Assembly (NCBI RefSeq): GCF_001428485.1 | Contig: NZ_LMHS01000001.1 | Span: 682,404 to 746,403, forward strand | DNA: 64,000 nt | Reading direction: 5' to 3' | Source of the DNA: Microbacterium sp. Root180 | Lineage (GTDB): Bacteria > Actinomycetota > Actinomycetes > Actinomycetales > Microbacteriaceae | In this document: in pieces, positions 2,949 to 52,920 of the stretch | How positions within the stretch are numbered: the first letter of the stretch is position 1 | Layout: each line of letters starts with the position of its first letter | Position numbers and translations under genes: made by a program | The notes under the pieces: generated by a model | Told to the model about the DNA's origin: nothing | What the model saw: only the letters and a program-made list of their open reading frames with translations | Database searches by the model: none

Positions 2949-3956
2949 ATGACGAGGCTTCCCACTGTGGAGGACGTCGCCCTGGCGGCCGGCGTCTCGC
3001 GCCAGACGGTCTCGAACGTGCTCAACACCCCGGGGATCGTGCGGGCTTCGACGCGCGAGCGCGTCGAAGCCGCGATCGCCGAGCTCGGCTACCGACCCCA
3101 CATGGCCGCGCGGCGCCTGCGCACGCGGCGCAGCTCGACCATCGGCATCCACCTCGACCCCTACGCCGGCGGGATCTCGGGCGTCGTGCTCGACCGGTTC
3201 GTCCATGCGCTCACCGAGCACGCGGGCGCGCGGGGCATGCGCATCCAGCTCTACGCCGCTCGCAGCCCCCAGGAGGAGATCGCGCGCATGGGCGAGCTCA
3301 CCGAGGGCGGCGAGATCGACGCGGTCGTCATCACGGGGACGTTCCACGGAGATCCCCGCACCCGCTGGCTCGCGGATCACGGCGTCCCGTTCGTCGCCTT
3401 CGGCCGGCCCTGGGGCGACGACGACGTGGAGCAGCCCGCGCACCTGTGGGTCGATGTCGACGGAGCCGCCGGCACGCGCGCCGCGACCGCGCATCTGCTT
3501 TCGATCGCCGGCCTGCGCATCGCCTTCCTCGGGTGGCCCGACGGATCGGGAACCGGCGACGACCGCGAGCGCGGCTGGCGCGAGGCGATGGCAGCGGCAC
3601 ACGCGACCGGGGAGCGCCTCGCGTGCGAGGAGAGCGTCGGGCGCGCCCGCGCCGTCACCGCCGATCTGCTCACCCGCTCCGAGGTCGACGGCATCGTGTG
3701 CGTGAGCGACTCTCTCGCGATCGGCGCCCACCTCGCCGCCTCCGCAGCCGGACGCGCCGACCTGCCCGTCGTCGGGTTCGACAACACGCCTGCGGTGGAG
3801 GCCATCGGCATCAGCAGTGTCGAGCAGCTGCCCGAGCAGGTCGCCGCCGGTGTGCTGGAGCTGCTGATGGGGTCATCGGGGCGCATCGTGGCCCCGCGCG
3901 CCACCGCGGCGGGGGAGGCCCACGTGCTCGTCGAGCCGCGCCTCGTCGTGCGCTGA
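2949..3956 (+). CDS. LacI-family transcriptional regulator
   Basis: A 335-residue repressor. The N-terminal helix-turn-helix (VEDVALAAGVSRQTVSNVLN, residues about 7-26) and hinge are followed by a periplasmic-binding-protein-like ligand domain (about residues 60-335), with the family marker DGIVCVSDSLAIGAH near residue 245 and PVVGFDNTP near residue 275. It is divergent from a CUT1 sugar importer and separated from it by a perfect dyad. It most likely represses the importer until its cognate sugar or a derivative binds. The effector is unknown. Length is normal for LacI/GalR proteins. Confidence 0.93.
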   Translation: MTRLPTVEDVALAAGVSRQTVSNVLNTPGIVRASTRERVEAAIAELGYRPHMAARRLRTRRSSTIGIHLDPYAGGISGVVLDRFVHALTEHAGARGMRIQLYAARSPQEEIARMGELTEGGEIDAVVITGTFHGDPRTRWLADHGVPFVAFGRPWGDDDVEQPAHLWVDVDGAAGTRAATAHLLSIAGLRIAFLGWPDGSGTGDDRERGWREAMAAAHATGERLACEESVGRARAVTADLLTRSEVDGIVCVSDSLAIGAHLAASAAGRADLPVVGFDNTPAVEAIGISSVEQLPEQVAAGVLELLMGSSGRIVAPRATAAGEAHVLVEPRLVVR

Positions 3957-3978
3957 GGGTCCGTCACCCCTCACGAAC

Positions 3979-4176
3979 GAAATCGGGGTGGGGGTAGGGG
4001 CGCGTCCGGTCTCGGCCGTTTGTGCGGGGGAATGCCCGCACCCTCCGGGCGTGTTGCGCGCATTCGCCCGCACAAGCGAAATCGGGGTGGGGTGGGGGCG
4101 CGTGCGGTCCCGGCCGTTTGTGCGGGGGAATGCCCGCACCCTCCGGGCGTGTTGCGCGCATCCGCCCGCACAAGCG
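3979..4176. repeat. Two tandem ~97-99 bp units, each carrying a GTGCGGG/CCCGCAC hairpin
   Basis: This fills most of the 317-bp gap between the convergent lacI and iclR genes. Two near-identical units start at 3979 and 4078, with a third start fragment near 4174. Each unit has arms GTTTGTGCGGG and CCCGCACAAGC about 45 bp apart, enclosing a second stem (GAATGCCCG... and CGGGCGTG). The same arm core recurs at 50302-50375. The remainder, 4177-4273, is G-rich with repeated GGGGTGGGG and holds no gene. It could act as a bidirectional terminator, or be copies of a non-coding repeat element. Confidence 0.85.
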
Positions 4177-4273
4177 AATCGGTGTGGGGTGGTGGGCGGT
4201 GGCCGGGGTGGGGCCAGGAGTCGGGGCGGGGGCGGGAGTTGGGTCGGGGTGGGGTGGGGGGCGGTGTCCGGTC

Positions 4274-8585: not shown

Positions 8586-9767
8586 GTGACGGCCACGCTG
8601 ATCACGAACATCGGGGAGCTCACCACCAACGTCGAGCGCGACGGGGACAGGTGCGGCACCCTCCGTGACGCCGCGGTCCTTGTCGAGGGCTCGCGCATCG
8701 CGTGGGTGGGCGCGATGACGGATGCCGCGGCCGCAGCCGCCGCGCGGCGCGGGGCCGACGTCGTCGACGCCGCCGGGCGCGCCGTGATCCCCGGGTTCAT
8801 CGACAGCCACACCCACCTCGTGTTCGGCGGCGATCGCGCGGACGAGTTCGAGGCGCGCATGACCGGCGTGCCCTATGCCGCCGGCGGCATACGCCGCACG
8901 GTCGCGGCGACTCGGGCGGCGACCGACGAAGAGCTGCGGGCTCGCCTGCGGGGATTCACGGCCGAGCTCTACGGCCAGGGAACCACGACCTTCGAGATCA
9001 AGACCGGCTACGGGCTCACGGTCGAGGACGAGACGCGCCTCGCACGGCTGGCGGCCGAGGTCACGACCGAGGTCACATTCCTCGGCGCGCACGTCGTGCC
9101 GGCGGAGTACGCCGACCGTCGCGAGGCGTACATCGACCTCGTCGTCGGGCCGATGCTCGAGGCAGTCCGACCGCACGCACGCTGGGTGGACGTGTTCTGC
9201 GAACGCGGCGCCTTCACGCCGGAGGAGTCGCGCCGGATCCTGACGGCCGGAGCCGCGCACGGGCTGCTGCCGCGCGTGCACGGCAACCAGCTCGGGCACG
9301 GCGAGGGCGTGCGCATCGCGGTGGCGGCGGGCGCGGCATCCGTCGACCACTGCACGTACCTCGACGAGGCGGACGTGTCGGCGCTCGCCGGCTCGGACAC
9401 GGTGGCGACGCTGCTGCCGGGCGTGGAATTCTCGACCCGCCAGCCCTACCCCGACGCGCGCCGGCTGATCGACGCCGGCGTCACGGTCGCCCTGGCGAGC
9501 GACTGCAACCCCGGGTCGAGCTTCACGAGCTCGATGCCGCTCATGATCGCGCTCGCCGTGCGGGAGATGGGCATGACGCCCTCCGAGGCCGTCTGGGCGA
9601 CGACCGCGGGCGGCGCGCGCGCCCTGCGCCGCGACGACGTAGGAGCGATCGCGCCGGGGATGCGGGCCGACCTGGTCCTGCTCGACGCGCCGACTCGCGT
9701 GCACCTCGCCTACCGGCCGGGTGTGCCCCTGATCGCGGGCGTGTGGAAGGACGGCGAGCGGCTCTAG
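8586..9767 (+). CDS. hutI: Imidazolonepropionase
   Basis: A 393-residue amidohydrolase that opens imidazolonepropionate to N-formimidoyl-L-glutamate, step three of the pathway. The metal-binding motif [12 protein letters not shown] holds His75 and His77. Later family elements are [33 protein letters not shown] and the C-terminal [15 protein letters not shown] at 8586 was chosen because GGAAGG precedes it at correct spacing and the protein then matches family length. It follows hutU on the same strand; the 97-bp gap contains a partial hairpin-repeat-like stretch near 8505-8520. Confidence 0.96.
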
Positions 9768-9844
9768 CTGTGCATCTCGCGCGGCGTCGGCTCCGGGTCG
9801 ACGTGCGGCGCGGGCAGGCGTGGGATGCGGGGTCGTCGTCCCGT

Positions 9845-9938
9845 GCTCAGCGCGGTGCGTTGAAGCTCAGTGCGGTGCGTCGGAGCTCAGTGCGGTCGGG
9901 CTCAGCGCGTCAGTCTGGCTCAGCGCGGTGCGTCGAAC
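9845..9938 (-). repeat. Degenerate short tandem copies of the sixA 3' end
   Basis: The final ~20 bases of the SixA-like gene (…GACGCACCGCGCTGAGC on the coding strand) recur downstream of its stop. GCTCAG marks occur at plus positions 9918 (the gene), 9900, 9885, 9865 and 9845. The 9845 and 9865 copies are nearly complete; the middle two are shortened. Each copy keeps the TGA. The remaining gap 9768-9844 to hutI holds nothing recognisable. Confidence 0.75.
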
Positions 9939-10390
9939 GTCCAGTCGGCGGGGTCGAGCGCGGTGGCGACGTCCCAGTCGTCTGCGTCCCACGTAAAGGT
10001 CGCCACGGCGCACGTCGGCATGTGAGCGATCCCGTCATCGGACAGATGCGCGGCGAGCATGCTCATTCCGGGGTCGTGGGCGACGATCATCACCGAGTCG
10101 ACCCCGGACTCGACGGCGGCGGTGCGCAGCAGTGCGGCCCCGGCGCCGTAGAGCCGCTCCTGCAGCGTCACGGCGACCCCCGTCGCCGCGGCGAACGCAT
10201 GCGCCGTCGTACGGGCGCGCAGCGCGGTGCTCGACAGGATGACGTCGGGGCGGAACACCGATTCGGCGTACCACTGGGCCATGCGCGGGGCATCGGCGCG
10301 ACCGCGTTCGTTCAGCGGACGATCGTGGTCGTCCAGGAGCGGGTCGTCCCAGTCCGACTTCGCGTGCCGCACGAGAGCCAGCCGGATCAT
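9920..10390 (-). CDS. SixA-like histidine phosphatase
   Basis: A 156-residue member of the histidine phosphatase superfamily. The catalytic LVRHAKSDW motif (Arg8-His9) is the SixA form of RHG. A second conserved His lies in VMIVAHDPGMS, and ERGRADAPRMAQWY is typical of SixA-type proteins. SixA in E. coli dephosphorylates a phosphohistidine on a phosphotransferase protein; actinobacterial relatives are poorly characterised, so the substrate is open. The start ATG overlaps the hutG stop by 4 bp, so the two are translationally coupled, an unexpected pairing. Its 3' end is followed by repeated short copies of itself. Confidence 0.88.
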   Translation of the reverse strand: MIRLALVRHAKSDWDDPLLDDHDRPLNERGRADAPRMAQWYAESVFRPDVILSSTALRARTTAHAFAAATGVAVTLQERLYGAGAALLRTAAVESGVDSVMIVAHDPGMSMLAAHLSDDGIAHMPTCAVATFTWDADDWDVATALDPADWTFDAPR

Positions 10391-11280
10391 GAGCCGATGG
10401 CCTTCCCGGCGAGCAGCTCGAGCACGCACAGTGCCGCCAGTCGCACCGTGCGCCCGTCCGGGGCATCGGCGGTGGCGTCGACCTCGACGATGTCGGCGCT
10501 GCGGACACGCGCATCGGATGCCGCGGCCCGCACGATCGCGCGGAGCTCCCATGCGGCGAGCCCGCCCGGGACCGAGGCCGGGCAGCCGGGCGCCACCGAG
10601 CGGTCGCAGACATCGACATCGATGTCGAGGTGGATCGCTCCACCGCCGGCACCGGCGATCTCGAGGGCCTCGGCGACGACGTCGGCAGCACCGCGCCGCC
10701 GCACTTCGTCGAGGCTCACCACCGTGATCCCGAGGTCGGCGGCGCGCTGCGCGTACGCGACGGAGTTCGCGAAGTCGGCGATGCCGAGCTGCACGATGCG
10801 GCGCGGATCGAGACCGTCCTGAACGAGCCGGCGCACCGGAGAGCCGTTGGAGACGCCGTCGCGCAGGTCGAAGTGCGCATCCAGGGTGATGAGGCCGGTC
10901 GCGCCGGCGCCCTGAGCGACCGGGCAGGTCACGGAGTTGTCGCCGCCGAGCGCGACGACGAGCGCGGCATCCGCCGTCAACTCCGCCACGGCGGCGCGGA
11001 CGGATGCCTCGCCCTCGGGCCCGTCGGGCGAGGCGATGTCGCCCGCATCGGCAATGCGAAGGCTTTCGGCCAGATCGATCGGCGGCGGGCCGAGCAGCGT
11101 CGGGCTGAAGCGCCGGAGCGCCTCGCGCACCGCCGCCGGCGTCGCGTGCGCGCCGGTCGGCGACAGCGACGTGCGCCACGCCGGGACGCCGAGCAGGACG
11201 GCATCCCAGCCGCCCGAGTCGGCGTCGGGGGCGGGCCAGCCGCCGGCTCGTGGCCACAGGGGATCGTGGGAGAGCGTCAC
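10387..11280 (-). CDS. hutG: Formimidoylglutamase (arginase/ureohydrolase family)
   Basis: A 297-residue Mn-dependent ureohydrolase. The metal motifs are GGDNSVT (112-118), DAHFDLRD (134-141) and HLDIDVDVCD (about 228-237), which supply the Asp/His ligands of arginase-fold enzymes; note Asn where many have His in GGDH. The cluster with hutH, hutU and hutI points to hydrolysis of N-formimidoyl-glutamate to glutamate and formamide, completing the pathway. It starts at GTG 11280 and ends overlapping the SixA-like gene. It is transcribed convergently to hutHUI. Agmatinase or arginase activity is possible but less likely in this context. Confidence 0.88.
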   Translation of the reverse strand: MTLSHDPLWPRAGGWPAPDADSGGWDAVLLGVPAWRTSLSPTGAHATPAAVREALRRFSPTLLGPPPIDLAESLRIADAGDIASPDGPEGEASVRAAVAELTADAALVVALGGDNSVTCPVAQGAGATGLITLDAHFDLRDGVSNGSPVRRLVQDGLDPRRIVQLGIADFANSVAYAQRAADLGITVVSLDEVRRRGAADVVAEALEIAGAGGGAIHLDIDVDVCDRSVAPGCPASVPGGLAAWELRAIVRAAASDARVRSADIVEVDATADAPDGRTVRLAALCVLELLAGKAIGS

Positions 11281-11315
11281 GTTCCGAAGCTACTCCGATC
11301 CCGGGCTCGCACGGG

Positions 11316-11355
11316 GTTGCGCACGCATGCGCGTCGTGGTGTCGGCGTGCGCAAT
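11316..11355. repeat. Hairpin with TTGCGCACGC arms upstream of hutG
   Basis: Perfect arms TTGCGCACGC (11317-11326) and GCGTGCGCAA (11345-11354) in the gap between hutG and the preceding minus-strand gene. It may terminate the upstream unit or serve as an operator for hutG. The rest of the gap to 11402 is featureless. Confidence 0.5.
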
Positions 11356-11402
11356 CCGGACAGATTGCCCGGTCGCGCGAGCGATGAGCCGCGGCGATGG
11401 CG

Positions 11403-11545
11403 CAGACAGCCGCGAGCACTCGAGCGTCTGGACCGCTCGCGCGAACGCGGAGCTCAGGCAGCCGCGTACACACGAGGGTCTGGGCCGCTCGGGCGAACGA
11501 CAGCGCTCAGACAGCCACGTACACCCACGCGTCTCGACCGCTCGC
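11403..11545 (-). repeat. Diverged tandem copies of the gamma-glutamylcyclotransferase-gene 3' end
   Basis: The coding-strand end of the 11507-11848 gene (…GTGTACGTGGCTGTCTGA) is repeated downstream at spacings of about 53 and 52 bp. Plus-strand CAGRCAGCC marks lie at 11508 (gene), 11455 and 11403. The nearer copy keeps a TGA; the farthest has lost it and is the most diverged. Confidence 0.75.
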
Positions 11546-11848
11546 GAGCCTTACCAGGACACGTCGGTAGAGGGCGACCTCGTACTCGTCGGAGGCATCC
11601 AGCTCGTCCTCTGTCACCCACAGCGCCTTCCCCACGACCTTGTCCAGCGCACTGCCGGTCGCGCGCACGATCGGATGCACGGATACGCCTGACAGGTCCA
11701 CGACCCGCATGTCCTCGATCTCGGCGTAGTCGACCGTGTAGCCGGGAAGGACGTCGTCCTCGGCCGCGAGGAGCCGCCCGAACGTGTCGAGCTGGACATC
11801 GGGATTCTGGAGCGTCCCGTAGCTGAAGAGGAGCTGGTCGGCGGCCAC
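11507..11848 (-). CDS. Gamma-glutamylcyclotransferase-fold (AIG2-like) protein
   Basis: A 113-residue protein with the family's N-terminal LFSYGTLQNPDVQ motif (residues about 7-19), whose YGTLxxP loop lines the substrate pocket. The conserved acidic segment VTEDELDASDEYEVALYRR (about 79-97) carries the Glu expected to catalyse cyclisation of a gamma-glutamyl amino acid. It starts at GTG 11848. No partner gene reveals the substrate; many bacterial members are uncharacterised. Its 3' end is followed by diverged tandem copies. Confidence 0.85.
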   Translation of the reverse strand: MAADQLLFSYGTLQNPDVQLDTFGRLLAAEDDVLPGYTVDYAEIEDMRVVDLSGVSVHPIVRATGSALDKVVGKALWVTEDELDASDEYEVALYRRVLVRLASGRDAWVYVAV

Positions 11849-11910
11849 GGCACCAGGCTAGTGCCGGACCCGCTCCCAGGCACCCGCCGCGACGTGAGAC
11901 GTCACGTAAT

Positions 11911-12158
11911 GGCACCGGGATCTCCGCCCAGGAGGGCGTGTGTGATCGAGAAGATCACGAGACCCGCCAGGGCGCCGGGATCTCATCCCAGGAAGGCGTG
12001 TGCGATCGAGAAGATCGCGAGACCCGCCAGGGCGCCGACATCTCATCTCAGGAAGGCGTGTGCGATCGAGAAGATCGCGAGACCCGCCAGGGCGCCGGGA
12101 TCTCATCCCAGGAATGCGTGTGCGATCGAGAAGATCGCGAGACCAGCCAGGGCGCCGA
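11911..12158 (-). repeat. 60-bp tandem array: 3' end of the DUF445 gene repeated four times
   Basis: Four units with an exact 60-bp period. The unit at 12099-12158 is the true end of the DUF445 gene (encoding GALAGLAIFSIAHAFLG-stop). The three downstream units repeat it with 90% or better identity; the farthest is the most changed and has lost the stop. Because 60 is a multiple of three, each stop is followed in frame by another copy. There are no spacers, so this is not a CRISPR array. Confidence 0.93.
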
Positions 12159-13374
12159 CGACCGTGCCGTTGAGCCGGATGTACTGCAGGTCGCGCCCGA
12201 CCATGAGCTCGATCTTCTCGGTCGTCTCGTTCGGGTCCCACCGCTCGACGGTGTCGGTGATGATCGACGCGATGTCGTGACGGTACCGGTCGACGAGGAA
12301 GACGGCGGCGTCGGTCACCCAGGAGTCCACGCGACGCTGGAGGGCGGCATCCGTCGTCAACCGCTCGCCGATCTCAGCCAGCGCCGTCGCCGCGCGCCGA
12401 CGGAGCGCGCTCTCGGGGTCGGCGAGCGAGGCCAGCAGCCCGGCCTTCGCGGTGTTCCACGCCTCGGCGGCGAGTTCGCGGATGCGCGGGCTGTCGAACA
12501 CCGTCGACTTCGCGTCCTCGAGACGACCGATGGTGGCCGGGTCGTGCTGCAGGTTGTCGGCGAGGCGGTCGAGGTATCCGTCGATCGCCTGGCGCGCCTG
12601 GTGGTCCGGATCGGCGCGGACGGCGGCGACGAACTTCACGGCCTCGTTGTACACGGTGTCGTCGACCAGGCGATGCGCCACCGACGGAAGCCACGACGGC
12701 AGCCGCTTCGAGACGAGGCCCGTGAACGCGACGCGATTGGCCTCGAGCCACGCGCCGATGGTGTCGACGGCCATGTCGACCGCGCCGTGGTGGGCGCCCG
12801 ATTCCACGATGCGCCCGAGCCAGGCGCCGAGCGGCGGTCCCCACTCCGGCGCGATGAGGTGCTCCCGCGCGAGGTCCTCGATGATGCCTTGGACATCGTC
12901 GTCGCTGAGCGCCTGCAGCACGCCGGAGGCCATGACGGAGGCCTCGGCCGCGATCCGCTCCGCATGGGCGGGTTCACTCAGCCACTCGCCGAGTCGCGCC
13001 GAGATCGCCGTCGCCTCGAGCTTCGTGCGCACGACGTCGCTGCGCAGGAACTCCGTCTCGACGAACTCACCCAGCGTGCGGCCGATCTCGTCCTTGCGGT
13101 TCGGGATGATCGCCGTGTGCGGGATGGGGATCCCGAGCGGATGCCGGAACAGTGCCGTCACCGCGAACCAGTCCGCGAGCGCACCGACCATGCCGCCCTC
13201 CGCCGCCGCGCGCACATACGCCAGAGCGCGCACCTGCGCCTCGAACGCGAACGACACCGCGAACAGGACCGCCATGCCCACCAGGGCGCCGAGCGCGACG
13301 CCCTTCATGAGCCGCAGGCCGCGGCGCCGCTCCTGGTCGGCCGGGCTCAGCAGAGCTGTCGGAGTGCGCGCCAT
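12103..13374 (-). CDS. DUF445 family membrane protein
   Basis: A 423-residue protein with a helix near the N-terminus (VALGALVGMAVLFAVSFAFEA) and another at the C-terminus (VVGALAGLAIFSIAHAFL), enclosing a long soluble, helix-rich domain. The conserved GMVGALADWFAVTALFRHPLGIPIPHTAIIPNRKDEIG region is the DUF445 signature. Function of the family is unknown. ATG at 13374 was chosen over 13383, 9 bp upstream, because GAGG sits at better spacing; an open frame reaches 13596 but runs through repeats copied from the neighbouring gene. Its 3' end is amplified as a 60-bp array. Confidence 0.88.
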   Translation of the reverse strand: MARTPTALLSPADQERRRGLRLMKGVALGALVGMAVLFAVSFAFEAQVRALAYVRAAAEGGMVGALADWFAVTALFRHPLGIPIPHTAIIPNRKDEIGRTLGEFVETEFLRSDVVRTKLEATAISARLGEWLSEPAHAERIAAEASVMASGVLQALSDDDVQGIIEDLAREHLIAPEWGPPLGAWLGRIVESGAHHGAVDMAVDTIGAWLEANRVAFTGLVSKRLPSWLPSVAHRLVDDTVYNEAVKFVAAVRADPDHQARQAIDGYLDRLADNLQHDPATIGRLEDAKSTVFDSPRIRELAAEAWNTAKAGLLASLADPESALRRRAATALAEIGERLTTDAALQRRVDSWVTDAAVFLVDRYRHDIASIITDTVERWDPNETTEKIELMVGRDLQYIRLNGTVVGALAGLAIFSIAHAFLG

Positions 13375-13426
13375 GCCCGCCATCCTCGCACGCGCCTCCC
13401 GTGCCGGCAGGGGGCTTGCGGCGGGG

Positions 13427-13620
13427 CTCAGGCCTCCGACGGTCCCAGCCACGCGGTGGCGATCGTCGCGTGCTCGGCGCAGGGGGTGAGAGCGGGGGCT
13501 CAGGCGTCGAGCGGTCCCAGCCACGCGGTGGCGATCGTCGCGTGCGCGGCGCAGGGGGTGAGAGCGGGGGCTCAGGCGTCGAGCGGTCCCAGCCACGCGG
13601 TGGCGATCGTCGCGTGCGCC
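13427..13620 (-). repeat. 72-bp tandem copies of the acyl-CoA dehydrogenase 3' end
   Basis: Marks GGTCCCAGCC occur at 13441, 13513 and 13585, an exact 72-bp period. The unit at 13571-13620 is the true gene end (encoding ATIATAWLGPLDA-stop). Two further copies lie downstream, filling the gap to the DUF445 gene. The period is a multiple of three, so backup stops remain in frame. Confidence 0.92.
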
Positions 13621-14744
13621 GACTCCGGATCGCTCGGGTGGAAGAGCCCGGCGAGCACGTCGCGGTATAGGCGACCGAGCTCATGGGAGGCGAAGTACGA
13701 CGATCCGCCCGCAACGAGGACAGCGTCGTCGACCACGGATTTCGCCGTGACGACGGCCCGGTGCTTGAGGCCCGCGAGCAGCGAGAACCATCGCCCGCCG
13801 TGATCGGTGAGCCCATCGACGTCGCGTGCGAGAGAGTCGAGCTGCGGCGGCAGCGCATCGTAGGCGAGCGCCATTCCTGCGATGCGCCGGCGGATGTCGG
13901 GGTCCTGGTCGTACGCCAGCCCCGTCTTCTTCGAGGTGCGCGCGCCCGCCGATTCGACGGCAACCTCGAGCGCCCGCCGCGCGATTCCGGTGTACACCGA
14001 GGCGAGGAGGATCTCGAACACGCTGAAGATGCCGAACACCAGCGGATCGGGGTTCGGGCCCGGATCGATCCGCCGTGCGACGCGATCGGCGGGCGCGACG
14101 GCGCCGCGCAGCTCGGTCGTGCGCGACTGCGTGCCGCGCATGCCGAGGGTGTCCCAGTCGTCGCGCGTGACGACGCGGCCCGCGGCCTCCTCGGTCCGCG
14201 GGACGAAGGCGTAGACCATCTTCGGCGCGTCCGGCGACGTCGTGTCGAGGCCGTGAAGCCCGAGCTGCGTCCACACCGGGGCGAGCGAGGTGAAGATCTT
14301 CGTGCCGGAGAACGCGTAGCCGCCGCCGGGGAGGGGCGCGGCATCCGTTCCGCTCCCGAACAGCACCAGGTCGTTGCCCGCCTCACTTATGCCGAAGGCG
14401 AAGATCTCGCCGGCCGCCGCGCCTTCCTGAACGAACCGCAGGTCGTCGAAGCCTCGATCGGCGAGGACCTTGGCGACGCCCGTCCACACCAGATGCATGT
14501 TCACGGCGAGGGCGGTCGCGGGTGCGGCTCCCGCGAGTCGCTGCTGCAACGCCGATGCCTGGGCCAGGCCGAGTCCCGCACCGCCGAGCTCGCTCGGCAC
14601 GAGGATCGAGAGGTAGCCGGCATCGCGCAGCTCGGCGAGGTCGGCGTCGGGGAAGGTGTTCTCGCGATCGTGGGTCGGAGCCCGGTCGCGGATGCGCTCG
14701 AGCAGGTCGTCCGGCAGGAACGCGGCGGCATCGAACGCGGTCAT
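13572..14744 (-). CDS. Acyl-CoA dehydrogenase family flavoprotein
   Basis: A 390-residue protein with the three-domain ACAD layout. The N-terminal helical part includes LVPSELGGAGLGLAQA; the middle beta domain has FGISEAGNDL, YAFSGTKIFTSLAPV and GMRGTQSRTTELRG; the C-terminal helices follow. It would oxidise an acyl-CoA or related thioester with FAD, though the closest relatives of this shape include monooxygenase-like members, so the substrate is open. ATG at 14744 overlaps the stop of the upstream alpha/beta hydrolase (ATGA), implying coupled expression and perhaps a shared pathway. Its last codons are duplicated downstream. Confidence 0.9.
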   Translation of the reverse strand: MTAFDAAAFLPDDLLERIRDRAPTHDRENTFPDADLAELRDAGYLSILVPSELGGAGLGLAQASALQQRLAGAAPATALAVNMHLVWTGVAKVLADRGFDDLRFVQEGAAAGEIFAFGISEAGNDLVLFGSGTDAAPLPGGGYAFSGTKIFTSLAPVWTQLGLHGLDTTSPDAPKMVYAFVPRTEEAAGRVVTRDDWDTLGMRGTQSRTTELRGAVAPADRVARRIDPGPNPDPLVFGIFSVFEILLASVYTGIARRALEVAVESAGARTSKKTGLAYDQDPDIRRRIAGMALAYDALPPQLDSLARDVDGLTDHGGRWFSLLAGLKHRAVVTAKSVVDDAVLVAGGSSYFASHELGRLYRDVLAGLFHPSDPESAHATIATAWLGPLDA

Positions 14745-15499
14745 GCGAGGGCGTTCCGCAGGATCTCGATCGTCGCCTCGGGCTTGTCCCGGTGCGGCGA
14801 GTGCCCGGCGCCGGACACGACCGACATCGTGATCCTCGGGTTCGCGTGCACGACCGCCTCCGCGGGCTTGCCGGCGAAGATGCTGTACACCTCCGGGTCG
14901 GAGGCGATCACGTGGGTCGGCACGGCGAGGGCGGCCGCGGCATCCGTCACATCCCACACCGGGTTCTGGATGCTCGTCTGCTCGACGGCCCAGCGACTCG
15001 CCTGCTGAGCCGAGAGCGCCTTGAGCTCGACGTCCTGCTCGTGCCAGTGGGGGTGGCTCGCGCGCACCGCCCGCGCGGAGGGGGCGGCGAACGACTCCTC
15101 CTGGCTGGCGCGGACGACGTCGCGATCGTGGTCGGTGAGCGAGAGGGCGGGGTCGATGAGGATGAGGTGCCGCGTCCAGGAGGGATCGGATGCCGCCGCG
15201 AGCGTCGCCGCCGCGCCGCCGAGGGAGTGTCCGATCACGAGATCCCACGAGCCGCCGTCGCGAGGCTGGGCGGCGGCGAGGTCGGCGCCGTACGCGGCGA
15301 GGCTGTAGTCGAGCGTGCGGGGAGCCGTGCCGTGGCCTCGGAGGTCGACCGCGTCGGCGCGCCAGCCCGCATCGGCGAGGGCGATGCCGTAGCGCCACAT
15401 CAGCGGCGCGTTCGAGCCGAGCCCGTGGACGAGCAGGGCGCGGCGGTCGGCGTCGGGGGCGCCCCACGAGAGGCGGGGGAGCGTCACGGCAGCAGGCAT
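14741..15499 (-). CDS. Alpha/beta hydrolase
   Basis: A 252-residue serine hydrolase. The nucleophile elbow is GHSLGG, preceded by the LLVHGLGSNAPLMW oxyanion-hole segment (HGxG). The acidic residue is probably in VIASDPEVY, and the C-terminal catalytic His is in GAGHSPHRDKP. No signal peptide, so cytoplasmic. It overlaps the downstream acyl-CoA dehydrogenase by 4 bp. It could be a thioesterase or esterase acting on the same compound class; the sequence does not settle the substrate. Confidence 0.9.
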   Translation of the reverse strand: MPAAVTLPRLSWGAPDADRRALLVHGLGSNAPLMWRYGIALADAGWRADAVDLRGHGTAPRTLDYSLAAYGADLAAAQPRDGGSWDLVIGHSLGGAAATLAAASDPSWTRHLILIDPALSLTDHDRDVVRASQEESFAAPSARAVRASHPHWHEQDVELKALSAQQASRWAVEQTSIQNPVWDVTDAAAALAVPTHVIASDPEVYSIFAGKPAEAVVHANPRITMSVVSGAGHSPHRDKPEATIEILRNALA

Positions 15500-15536
15500 A
15501 CCGCCATGCTACGGATCCGGCAGGACCCCCTGGCGC

Positions 15537-15613
15537 GTCGAGATTCGAGGAGACACGCCGGGATGCCTGGCTCGGGGGCGACCGCTGCGCGGCGAGTCTC
15601 CTCATTTCTCGAC
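15537..15613. repeat. Imperfect inverted repeat (type A) in a divergent gap
   Basis: Arms of 24 bp (from GTCGAGATTCGAGGAGAC at the left to CTCCTCATTTCTCGAC at the right) matching at about 21 of 24 positions, around a 29-bp centre. It lies between two divergent genes, so it is not a normal terminator. The right arm is shared with the repeated sequence at 52728-52900 after the Sir2 gene. Confidence 0.75.
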
Positions 15614-15700
15614 GGCGACGCTCGATGGTGGCTCTCGACGGCTGCTCTCGGCTCCGGGCTTCCCGGCCCCGGCCGTCCCGGCCGCGGGGACAATGGACCC

Positions 15701-16105
15701 ATGATCTCGACCGACCTCGCCCTCGCCCTGCGAGACGCCGGCCTCACGTGGCGGCCGCGCTCGGGTGACCGGTTCCAGCTGGACGAGCCCGAGTTCGAGG
15801 CCGACGTGTTCACGGTGAGCGAGATGACGATCGAGCCGCGCGAGTACCCGACGGGCCACATCCTCGCCTTCAACGGGACGACCGAGTGGGCGCTGGATTC
15901 CGTGGCACTCGAGGACGCGCTGTGGCTGCCGCACGAGAGCCAGCTCCGCGAATTGCTCGGGCGCTCCTTCCGCGCGCTGCGGCGCCTGCCCGACTCGTTC
16001 GAGGTGGAGATCGAGCTCGCCGCCGAGGCCCGGGTCTTCGAGCACCCCGAGCCGGCCGATGCCTACGCGCTCGCGCTCCTGGAGCAGCTGCGCCGGCTTG
16101 CCTGA
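15701..16105 (+). CDS. Conserved hypothetical actinobacterial protein
   Basis: A 134-residue soluble, acidic protein (MISTDLALALRDAGLTWRPRSGD...). I do not recognise a domain. It has the look of a small actinobacterial family that is often loosely labelled as pilus-assembly related, but nothing here supports that role. No signal peptide or membrane helix. ATG at 15701 is the only start giving a compact protein. It stands alone on the plus strand between a divergent hydrolase and a convergent dioxygenase-like gene, with inverted-repeat elements on both sides. Confidence 0.8.
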   Translation: MISTDLALALRDAGLTWRPRSGDRFQLDEPEFEADVFTVSEMTIEPREYPTGHILAFNGTTEWALDSVALEDALWLPHESQLRELLGRSFRALRRLPDSFEVEIELAAEARVFEHPEPADAYALALLEQLRRLA

Positions 16106-16198
16106 CCGGGCACAACGTCGGCGATCCCGGCCATGTCGGACCGATTCCGGTCGCCGACGTGGGTGAGGAGCCCGATCTGCCGACGTTGTGCTCGCCGG
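16104..16198. repeat. Long inverted repeat (type D) in a convergent gap
   Basis: Outer arms GCACAACGTCGGCGATC and GATCTGCCGACGTTGTGC, about 60 bp apart, with further internal pairing (CGGACCGATTCCGGTCG). It begins at the stop of the small plus-strand gene and abuts the duplicated 3' end of the dioxygenase-like gene. It could terminate both convergent genes, but is much longer than a usual terminator. Confidence 0.75.
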
Positions 16199-16213
16199 GT
16201 GGGCGCTTCGCGT

Positions 16214-16386
16214 GATCAGACCCCGATGGCGAGCGAGGCGGAGTAGCCGGACGTCGATCCCGACATCGTCTCGGTGCTCGACGGGTGGGTGCTTCGCGTG
16301 ATCAGACCCCGATGGTGAGCGAGGCGGTGTAGCCGGAGGACGCCGAGCCCGACATCGTCGCGATCTGGTGGATGCCTCCGTCGTCG
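16214..16386 (-). repeat. 86-bp tandem copy of the dioxygenase-like gene 3' end
   Basis: The mark GATCAGACCCCGATGG occurs at 16214 and again at 16300, giving an 86-bp period. The downstream copy would encode the same terminal residues (SGYSASLAIGV versus SGYTASLTIGV) followed by a stop. The copy differs at several positions, so the duplication is not recent. Confidence 0.88.
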
Positions 16387-17192
16387 CCGAACACGTTGTC
16401 GCTCTGCAGTGAGATCTGGGCCGCGTTGCGCACGCTCTGCTCGTACCCGCTCGTCGCGTACACCACGGCGTTCGTCTCGTCGGGCAGCGCCAGCTGCGAC
16501 GTCTTCACGATCGGGCCCGAGGCGACGGCGGTCGCGACATCCTCGTACACCTCGAAATGGATGTGCGGCCACCGTCCGGAGTAGCACGCCGGGTAGATCG
16601 ACGTGAAGCGCACGGTCCCGTTCGCGTCGGTCTCCTGCACGCCGCGCAGGTAGTTCTCGTTCTCCACACCCTGGCTGTACAGCGAGTACCGACCCTCGCG
16701 GTCGCAGTGCCACAGGTACACGCCGCGCCCGGCGAGCGCGGCGCCGGTCGCAGCATCGCGCACCGTCAGAGCGATCGTCAGCGGGACACCCTGCGCACGA
16801 GTGGTCGACGACCCGAAGCTCGAGCGGATGTCGCTGCGCACGATGCCCGAGTCGTCGAGCACGTTGACGCCGTTCGACCCATCGCCCGGGTACGGTCCTC
16901 CGGTCTCGTCCGGCACTTCGTCGAGGGGGACGGATGCCTCGGCCGTCGCGCTCGCCGAAGGTGTCGGCGTCGCGCTCTCCGATGCGGAGCCGGAAGACGA
17001 CGGCGTGGCCGCGGCATCCGCTTCGCTCTTCGCGCCGCACGCCGCGAGAAGGCTCGTGAGGGCGACGCCACCGAAGATGCCCAGCGCCCGGCGGCGGTCA
17101 ATGAGGGTGCGGATGTCGTACACGAGGCCGCGGTGGTCCTCGTCGATGATCTGGCCGTTCGCATCGGTCCAGCGGCTGTCGTCGTCTCTCAT
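16302..17192 (-). CDS. Intradiol dioxygenase-like exported lipoprotein
   Basis: A 296-residue protein. Residues 33-52 hold a twin-arginine-like DRRRALGIFGG start, a hydrophobic stretch and a lipobox LLAAC (Cys52), preceded by an unusually long 32-residue cytoplasmic leader. A Ser/Thr/Ala-rich linker follows, then an intradiol ring-cleavage fold: ENYLRG and PACYSGRWPHIHFEVY supply the two Tyr and two His that bind ferric iron in protocatechuate and catechol dioxygenases. The whole ligand set is present, so an extracellular catechol-type activity is plausible, but no aromatic pathway genes are adjacent. Exported members of this family are common and mostly untested. Confidence 0.86.
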   Translation of the reverse strand: MRDDDSRWTDANGQIIDEDHRGLVYDIRTLIDRRRALGIFGGVALTSLLAACGAKSEADAAATPSSSGSASESATPTPSASATAEASVPLDEVPDETGGPYPGDGSNGVNVLDDSGIVRSDIRSSFGSSTTRAQGVPLTIALTVRDAATGAALAGRGVYLWHCDREGRYSLYSQGVENENYLRGVQETDANGTVRFTSIYPACYSGRWPHIHFEVYEDVATAVASGPIVKTSQLALPDETNAVVYATSGYEQSVRNAAQISLQSDNVFGDDGGIHQIATMSGSASSGYTASLTIGV

Positions 17193-32843: not shown

Positions 32844-33308
32844 GTGTTCCGCACGCCCTTGAACCTGTTCCGAGTTCTGGCTGTTGCGGAGGCGATCTCG
32901 TGGACCCTGCTCCTCGCGGGACTCGTGGTGCGGGCGACCACCGACCTCGCCGTCGCGGTCACGGTCGGCGGCGGCATCCACGGGTTCGTGTTCCTGTCGT
33001 ACGGCGCGACGGCGGTGCTCGTCGCGAAGAACCAGCGCTGGGGAGCGTGGCCGACGATCGTCGCGATCGGGAGCGCGGTGATCCCGTACGCGACGATCCC
33101 GACCGAGCTCTGGCTGCACCGCTCCGGCCGGCTCGCCGGTCCGTGGCGCCTGCAGGCGACGGACGACCCGCGGGATGCCGCGTGGCACGACCGCCTGATG
33201 CGATGGTTCCTGGGTCGTGCGTGGCTGCTCGCCGTGCTCATCGCGGTCGCCGTGGTCGCGCTGTATGTCGTGCTGCTGATCGTCGGTCCGCCTGGCGGCC
33301 GCGACTGA
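32844..33308 (+). CDS. DUF3817 membrane protein
   Basis: A 154-residue actinobacterial membrane protein with three to four helices: FRVLAVAEAISWTLLLAGLVV near the N-terminus, FVFLSYGATAVLVA (about 48-61), TIVAIGSAVIPYATIPTELWL (about 70-90) and a last helix LLAVLIAVAVVALYVVLLIV (about 127-146). GTG at 32844 follows AAGGAGACC. Role unknown; family members are common in actinobacteria. The last 38 bases of the gene, stop included, recur 52 bp downstream. Confidence 0.87.
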   Translation: MFRTPLNLFRVLAVAEAISWTLLLAGLVVRATTDLAVAVTVGGGIHGFVFLSYGATAVLVAKNQRWGAWPTIVAIGSAVIPYATIPTELWLHRSGRLAGPWRLQATDDPRDAAWHDRLMRWFLGRAWLLAVLIAVAVVALYVVLLIVGPPGGRD

Positions 33309-51986: not shown

Positions 51987-52718
51987 ATGCGCATCGTCGT
52001 GCTCACCGGGGCCGGAATCTCTGCCGAGAGCGGCGTCCCGACGTTCCGCGACGCCGACGGGCTGTGGGAGGGGCATGACGTCGACGACGTCGCGACGCCG
52101 GAGGGCTTCGCGCGCGACCCCGACCTGGTGCAGCGCTTCTACGACGCGCGTCGGCGGGCTGTGGCATCCGTCGTCCCCAACGCCGCCCACCGCGCACTCG
52201 CGCGCCTCGAGGGAGCGTTCGGCGAGGACCTGCTGGTCGTGACGCAGAACGTGGACGACCTGCACGAGCGCGCGGGAACGAGCAATCTCGTGCACATGCA
52301 CGGCGAGCTGCGCCGGGCGCTGTGCGCGGGCTGCGGCGCCCGTCCGGTGTGGGACGCGGATCTCGAACCGCGTCCGCCGTGTCCGGCGTGCGGTGAGCGG
52401 ATGCTGCGCCCCGACGTGGTCTGGTTCGGTGAGATGCCGTACGAGCTCGACCGCATCGAACAGGCCCTCGCTGCGTGCGATGTGTTCGCCTCGATCGGCA
52501 CGTCCGGCGCCGTCTATCCCGCTGCCGGCTACGCCGCCCTCGCCGCCGCGTGGGGAGCGTGGACCGTCGAACTCAACCTCGAGCCGAGCGACGCGCTCGT
52601 CCCCTTCGACGATGCCCGGTCGGGCCGGGCGGGGGAGCTCGTTCCCGCCTGGGTCGAGGAGCTCCTGGCGACGAGGAATGAGGAAGAATCGACCGGCGCG
52701 CCGACGGAGCGGGACTAG
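51987..52718 (+). CDS. cobB: Sir2-family NAD-dependent deacylase (class III, CobB-like)
   Basis: A 243-residue sirtuin. NAD-binding GAGISAESGVPTFRDADGLW, active-site TQNVDDLHERAG and HGEL with the catalytic His (about residue 108), and a Zn site of CAGC and CPAC. The YDARRR element (about 51-56) matches the Tyr-x-x-Arg pair of class III sirtuins that prefer succinyl/malonyl groups, so desuccinylase activity is likely. The last ~20 codons (from ELLATRNEEE to the stop) belong to a repeated unit copied 153 bp downstream. Confidence 0.92.
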   Translation: MRIVVLTGAGISAESGVPTFRDADGLWEGHDVDDVATPEGFARDPDLVQRFYDARRRAVASVVPNAAHRALARLEGAFGEDLLVVTQNVDDLHERAGTSNLVHMHGELRRALCAGCGARPVWDADLEPRPPCPACGERMLRPDVVWFGEMPYELDRIEQALAACDVFASIGTSGAVYPAAGYAALAAAWGAWTVELNLEPSDALVPFDDARSGRAGELVPAWVEELLATRNEEESTGAPTERD

Positions 52719-52920
52719 GCGCGGCGCGTCTCCTGATTTCTCGACACGGTGGCGAGGAGCGACGGAGAGGGACTGGGCCGCGTTTCTCCTGATTTCTCGA
52801 CACGGTGGCGAGCAGCTCCTGGCGACGAGGAATGAGGGAGAATCGACCGCCGCGCTGACCGAGAACGACTGGGCGCGGCGTGTCTCCTCATTTCTCGACA
52901 CGGTGGCGAGGAGCGCGGCA
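52661..52920 (+). repeat. Repeat array built on the Sir2 gene 3' end
   Basis: The sequence from AGCTCCTGGCGACGAGGAAT (52661, inside the gene) recurs at 52814, a 153-bp period. A TCTCCTGATTTCTCGAC block occurs at 52729, 52785 and 52883 (as TCTCCTCATTTCTCGAC), each time followed by ACGGTGGCGAG. The same block is the right arm of the type A repeat at 15537-15613. The units carry self-complementary halves, so the array can fold. It ends near 52920, before the importer terminator. Confidence 0.85.

Follow-up and report, generated by a model that had tools for sequence, protein, structure and literature searches.

The 3' end of the DUF445 gene of Microbacterium sp. Root180 is repeated in tandem as four 60-bp units, and the array very probably represents a lineage-specific tandem duplication that was generated by slippage or unequal exchange and tolerated, its extra copies being most likely functionless and decaying. 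It lies within the 64,000 nucleotides analysed here (the window; contig NZ_LMHS01000001.1, positions 682,404 to 746,403), in which neighbouring genes carry arrays of their own.

Array layout and genomic setting

Using TRF, we located the array at 11911-12157 (period 60, 4.1 copies, 92% matches, 0 indels), where its score of 417 was the highest of any tandem array in the window. Comparison of the units resolved four 60-bp copies without indels and a 12-bp stub, together spanning 11911-12162 on the minus strand. Unit 1 (12103-12162) is the true 3' end of the gene, encoding VVGALAGLAIFSIAHAFLG followed by the TGA stop; the exact 60-bp period, the four units and the identity of the first as the real gene end, all claimed in an earlier sequence-only reading, were thus borne out by both TRF and unit comparison. 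Unit 2 (12043-12102) encodes DPG...FLR with an in-frame TGA and carries one Gly-to-Arg change, unit 3 (11983-12042) encodes DVG...FLG and likewise keeps its in-frame TGA, and unit 4 (11923-11982; DPG...LLGG), furthest from the gene and also the most diverged, has three missense changes and reads GGA for TGA. The loss of the stop in the last copy had been recognised correctly, and the claim that the three extra units encode the C-terminus plus a stop holds for units 2 and 3 but fails for unit 4. The stub of a fifth unit (11911-11922) is old post-stop sequence. Beyond the initial 6 nt, a single site distinguishes unit 2 from unit 3. The exact period, together with the point divergence, had been read as age plus ongoing homogenisation. 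Age and partial homogenisation agree with our comparison; the near-identity of units 2 and 3 beside a diverged unit 4 would, however, be explained equally well by a recent re-expansion, so that "ongoing" does not follow.

The host gene (12103-13374, minus strand; 423 aa; PF04286, E 2.1e-115) is present in a single full-length copy and has orthologues in most genomes of the genus, where the order abhydrolase, acyl-CoA dehydrogenase, DUF445, GGACT, arginase and histidine phosphatase is largely kept. GGACT, the gamma-glutamylcyclotransferase-like gene next after DUF445 (11507-11848, minus strand; PF06094), is preceded by the conserved -10-like element TAGCCT (11855-11860, minus strand), positioned 12 nt before its start and outside the array. 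The motif TA(G/C)CCT was found in front of GGACT in 28 of 39 sequences, the window included, compared with 0.3% of random 70-nt stretches, and its conservation suggests that GGACT has its own promoter, with TA(G/C)CCT as its likely -10 element, a short distance from the start codon. Gene calls were made with a home-made codon-usage finder, by which starts are approximate and each stop is fixed by the reading frame. In one genome (G015) the DUF445 gene end occurs on two contigs (180 and 10), in one case close to where the contig ends; an assembly break is the probable reason.

Origin and fate of the 60-bp copies

We searched 366 Microbacterium genomes, one per species, with a 341-bp query over the array. 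A full match was obtained only in the window's own genome, and the others, among the matches listed, ended within base 162; furthermore, no tandem copy of the DUF445 end was present at 29 other loci of the genus. The sequence-only reading had named the lack of any trace in related strains, together with a single copy on resequencing, as what would refute its proposal, and such a lack of extra copies was indeed found for the other species of the genus (365 genomes). In the closest relative found (G299), which is collinear at ~90% nucleotide identity, the DUF445-GGACT junction is undisturbed and holds a single unit. The unduplicated state is thus present in G299 and in all listed matches from the genus.

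The likely slippage repeat is TCGGCGCCCTG, 11 bases within the gene (12148-12158, minus strand), since the same 11 bases stand directly after the stop in G299 and the lag between the two positions is 60 bp. In the unduplicated state a short direct repeat would bound the unit, its two copies being seen in different species (the window and G299). What follows the stop in G299 (GATCTCGGCGCCCTGCGTGACGTC) has its counterpart in the stub and the bases after it in the window (GATCCCGGTGCCATTACGTGACGTC). From these two species we infer an ancestor carrying a ~10-11 bp sequence both within the gene end and immediately past the stop codon. With these repeats at a lag of 60, slippage during replication or an unequal exchange would duplicate the intervening 60 bp and so yield exactly the unit observed, and subsequent misalignment of whole units could have raised the number up to four. 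Tandem duplications that arise in either way from short direct repeats are an established mutational class. The array resembles such duplications in its lineage specificity, its decaying copies and the short direct repeat at its bounds, the latter inferred via G299, and differs from them in having four copies and in clustering with similar events at neighbouring genes.

Comparing the substitutions in the copies with those in the gene, a check that the sequence-only reading had proposed, separated the two. All 10 codon differences between the gene unit and G299 are synonymous, whereas of the six changes unique to copy 2 or copy 4 one is synonymous, four are missense (Gly to Arg, Ala to Val, Ala to Thr and Phe to Leu) and one is a stop loss (TGA to Gly; Fisher p ~0.001 for the contrast, calculated by hand). 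As judged from these substitution patterns, purifying selection acts on the gene unit and not visibly on the extra copies. Two of the unit-4 changes, at 11957 and 11943 (Ala-to-Val and Ala-to-Thr), are complementary and convert the stem GCGATC-TTCTC-GATCGC into GTGATC-TTCTC-GATCAC. This pair could reflect a quasipalindrome template switch, a described mutational process (PMC8794818, PMC7202029), or chance; as in the described cases the hairpin stem is left perfect, but unit 4 offers a single instance, which may be fortuitous.

A duplication that spans the stop leaves the upstream reading frame whole, and this array also ends before the conserved promoter-like element of GGACT; it was very probably tolerated because the gene and the -10-like element both stay intact. 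Arrays were found at 35 of 481 convergent junctions (7.3%), 34 of 1684 co-directional junctions (2.0%) and 6 of 476 divergent junctions (1.3%), the order expected if selection protects promoters and starts. The array on its own illustrates how bacterial intergenic spacers grow: stop-spanning duplication is nearly cost-free and short arrays accumulate at gene 3' ends.

Alternative functions and repeat classes

The sequence-only reading had given meaning to the in-frame "backup stops". Were the first TGA leaky, translation would run on through 19 residues of a second membrane helix and end at the next TGA, and selection would keep the copies as a readthrough reserve, in keeping with the 60-bp period, with units 2 and 3 holding the frame and TGA, and with the hydrophobic character of the predicted peptide (DPGALAGLAIFSIAHAFLR-type peptides). 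We consider this highly improbable, as the copies accumulate missense changes, unit 4 has lost its stop, and the array is absent from other species; in the genus search and unit comparison no conserved in-frame extension under purifying selection was found. Sibling arrays argue against it as well: of the other stop-spanning arrays in the window one has a period of 72, but the remaining periods (52, 86 and 56) are not multiples of 3, and a period divisible by 3 is not general. A role as spacer or RNA-structure device is also improbable, if less so. The repeats widen the DUF445-GGACT gap to 254 bp, compared with 74 bp, and hairpins could alter coupling, termination or mRNA stability; three co-directional junctions are lengthened in the same gene run, folding of the array RNA is somewhat stronger than that of shuffled sequences (z -3.2), and unit 4 has the compensatory pair in its 6-bp stem. 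Counted against a plain slippage reading, the fold and the pair could hint at structure. Repeat structure alone, however, increases pairing between units, the degree of structure at the DUF445 gene end is common among genes (a fraction of 0.77 fold as strongly), GGACT carries its own conserved promoter-like element and the array is not conserved in other species. Moreover, no terminator- or promoter-like site matched at the array, and no match to Rfam covariance models was obtained at 9500-17000 up to E 1. An assembly artefact is the least credible reading: tandem repeats are generally error-prone to assemble, but here the units differ mutually at distinct sites and independent arrays occur at several other junctions.

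With head-to-tail copies of a unit longer than ~10 bp (60 bp x 4.1, 0 indels), the array resembles minisatellite/VNTR-type repeats. It shares with the bacterial ones the units of tens of base pairs, the lack of indels, the point divergence and the mostly intergenic position, and differs in that its unit is the gene's own 3' end including the stop. Mycobacterial MIRUs, apparently mobile repeats which insert at start codons and whose ORF is coupled to the gene (PMC12548453), are likewise short intergenic repeats involving stop codons. The window unit, in contrast, derives from the adjacent gene and matches its own locus only, a search of the genome having returned this locus alone and no array-to-array match for the 60-bp unit.

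Regional crowding of gene-end arrays

Besides DUF445, three genes within 5 kb carry stop-spanning arrays of their own by TRF and gene calls: GGACT (11403-11546, minus strand; 52 bp x 2.7, 79% matches, the oldest-looking), acyl-CoA dehydrogenase (13423-13619, minus strand; 72 bp x 2.7, 96% matches) and the gene at 16302-17192 (array 16188-16359, minus strand; 86 bp x 2.0, 89% matches). A further one ends the gene at 51987-52718 (array 52702-52816, plus strand; 56 bp x 2.0, 88% matches). In 1.24 Mb of the same genome TRF found six stop-spanning arrays in all, five of them inside the window, and six consecutive genes hold four (in simulations, p 6e-6 for as many as four in eight genes). The background was drawn from 1.24 Mb of the window's genome, with a further 400 kb from G016 and 400 kb from G299. 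Junctions with arrays were in excess on contig 1 at 634-736 kb, at 15 of 93 (16%) compared with 18 of 1044 (1.7%) elsewhere in the sampled genome; the Fisher value of 5e-9 is inflated, as the block limits were chosen after seeing the data. The scan-statistic maximum of 8 in 20 junctions was reached in none of 20,000 permutations, its width being likewise post hoc, though less affected than the Fisher test. Junction by junction, 17 arrays in the window's genome compare with 6 in G299.

Neutral slippage alone does not explain this crowding. A regional mutational hotspot, in which ~100 kb of the lineage would be prone to short tandem duplications with slippage as the local mechanism, is possible but unlikely. 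It would accommodate the excess and the scan maximum, the four arrays in six consecutive genes, the 5 of 35 array-bearing junctions in the matching region of G016 (compared with 12 of 331), and the differing divergence among arrays, which implies separate duplication events. The matching region of G299, however, has arrays at 1 of 92 junctions, the limits of block and scan were set after seeing the data, and a hotspot shared by the genus at this locus is rejected, as the neighbourhoods of ~60 related loci show the background rate (16 of 780 junctions). Nor do introgression and terminus location supply a cause: nucleotide identity to G299 stays at ~88-92% throughout, within the block as well as beyond it, and in 13 relatives DUF445 is separated from dnaA by ~0.23-0.38 of the chromosome and so is not terminal there, GC skew on the window's contig being too weak to place the terminus. 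Hairpin-driven slippage was dismissed because array-bearing gene ends are not unusually structured. More specifically, a localised recurrent process that duplicates gene 3' ends over ~100 kb, by which adjacent genes would gain their own arrays at different times, is a doubtful proposal; no description of clustered 3'-end duplications was found in a literature search with little reach into subscription papers. The array itself is an ordinary, lineage-specific and probably non-functional tandem duplication, and it is the regional crowding that deserves more work: should a locally duplication-prone state lie behind it, differences in duplication rate between regions of a bacterial chromosome would become testable.

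A shared mobile repeat was also rejected, as the array units are mutually dissimilar except for short matches and one clear pair. This pair consists of a 98-bp x 2.2 array just past the gene at 2949-3956 (3978-4198) and a 101-bp array at ~358 kb of contig 1, ~75% identical over 164 bp; the two form a dispersed repeat family, which has arms resembling hairpins and is not derived from a gene end. Elsewhere in the window, a degenerate 20-bp array (9845-9896, ~2.6 copies) resembles the 3' end of the gene for histidine phosphatase, whose stop lies at 9920, and the gene end at 32844-33308 and downstream shows a partial duplication at a 52-bp lag that TRF missed. The array-rich junctions of G016 (contig 8, 308-345 kb) are at different genes from those of the window, and in the window's own genome tandem arrays with periods mainly of 52-55 make up a second, small cluster on contig 3 at ~266-291 kb.
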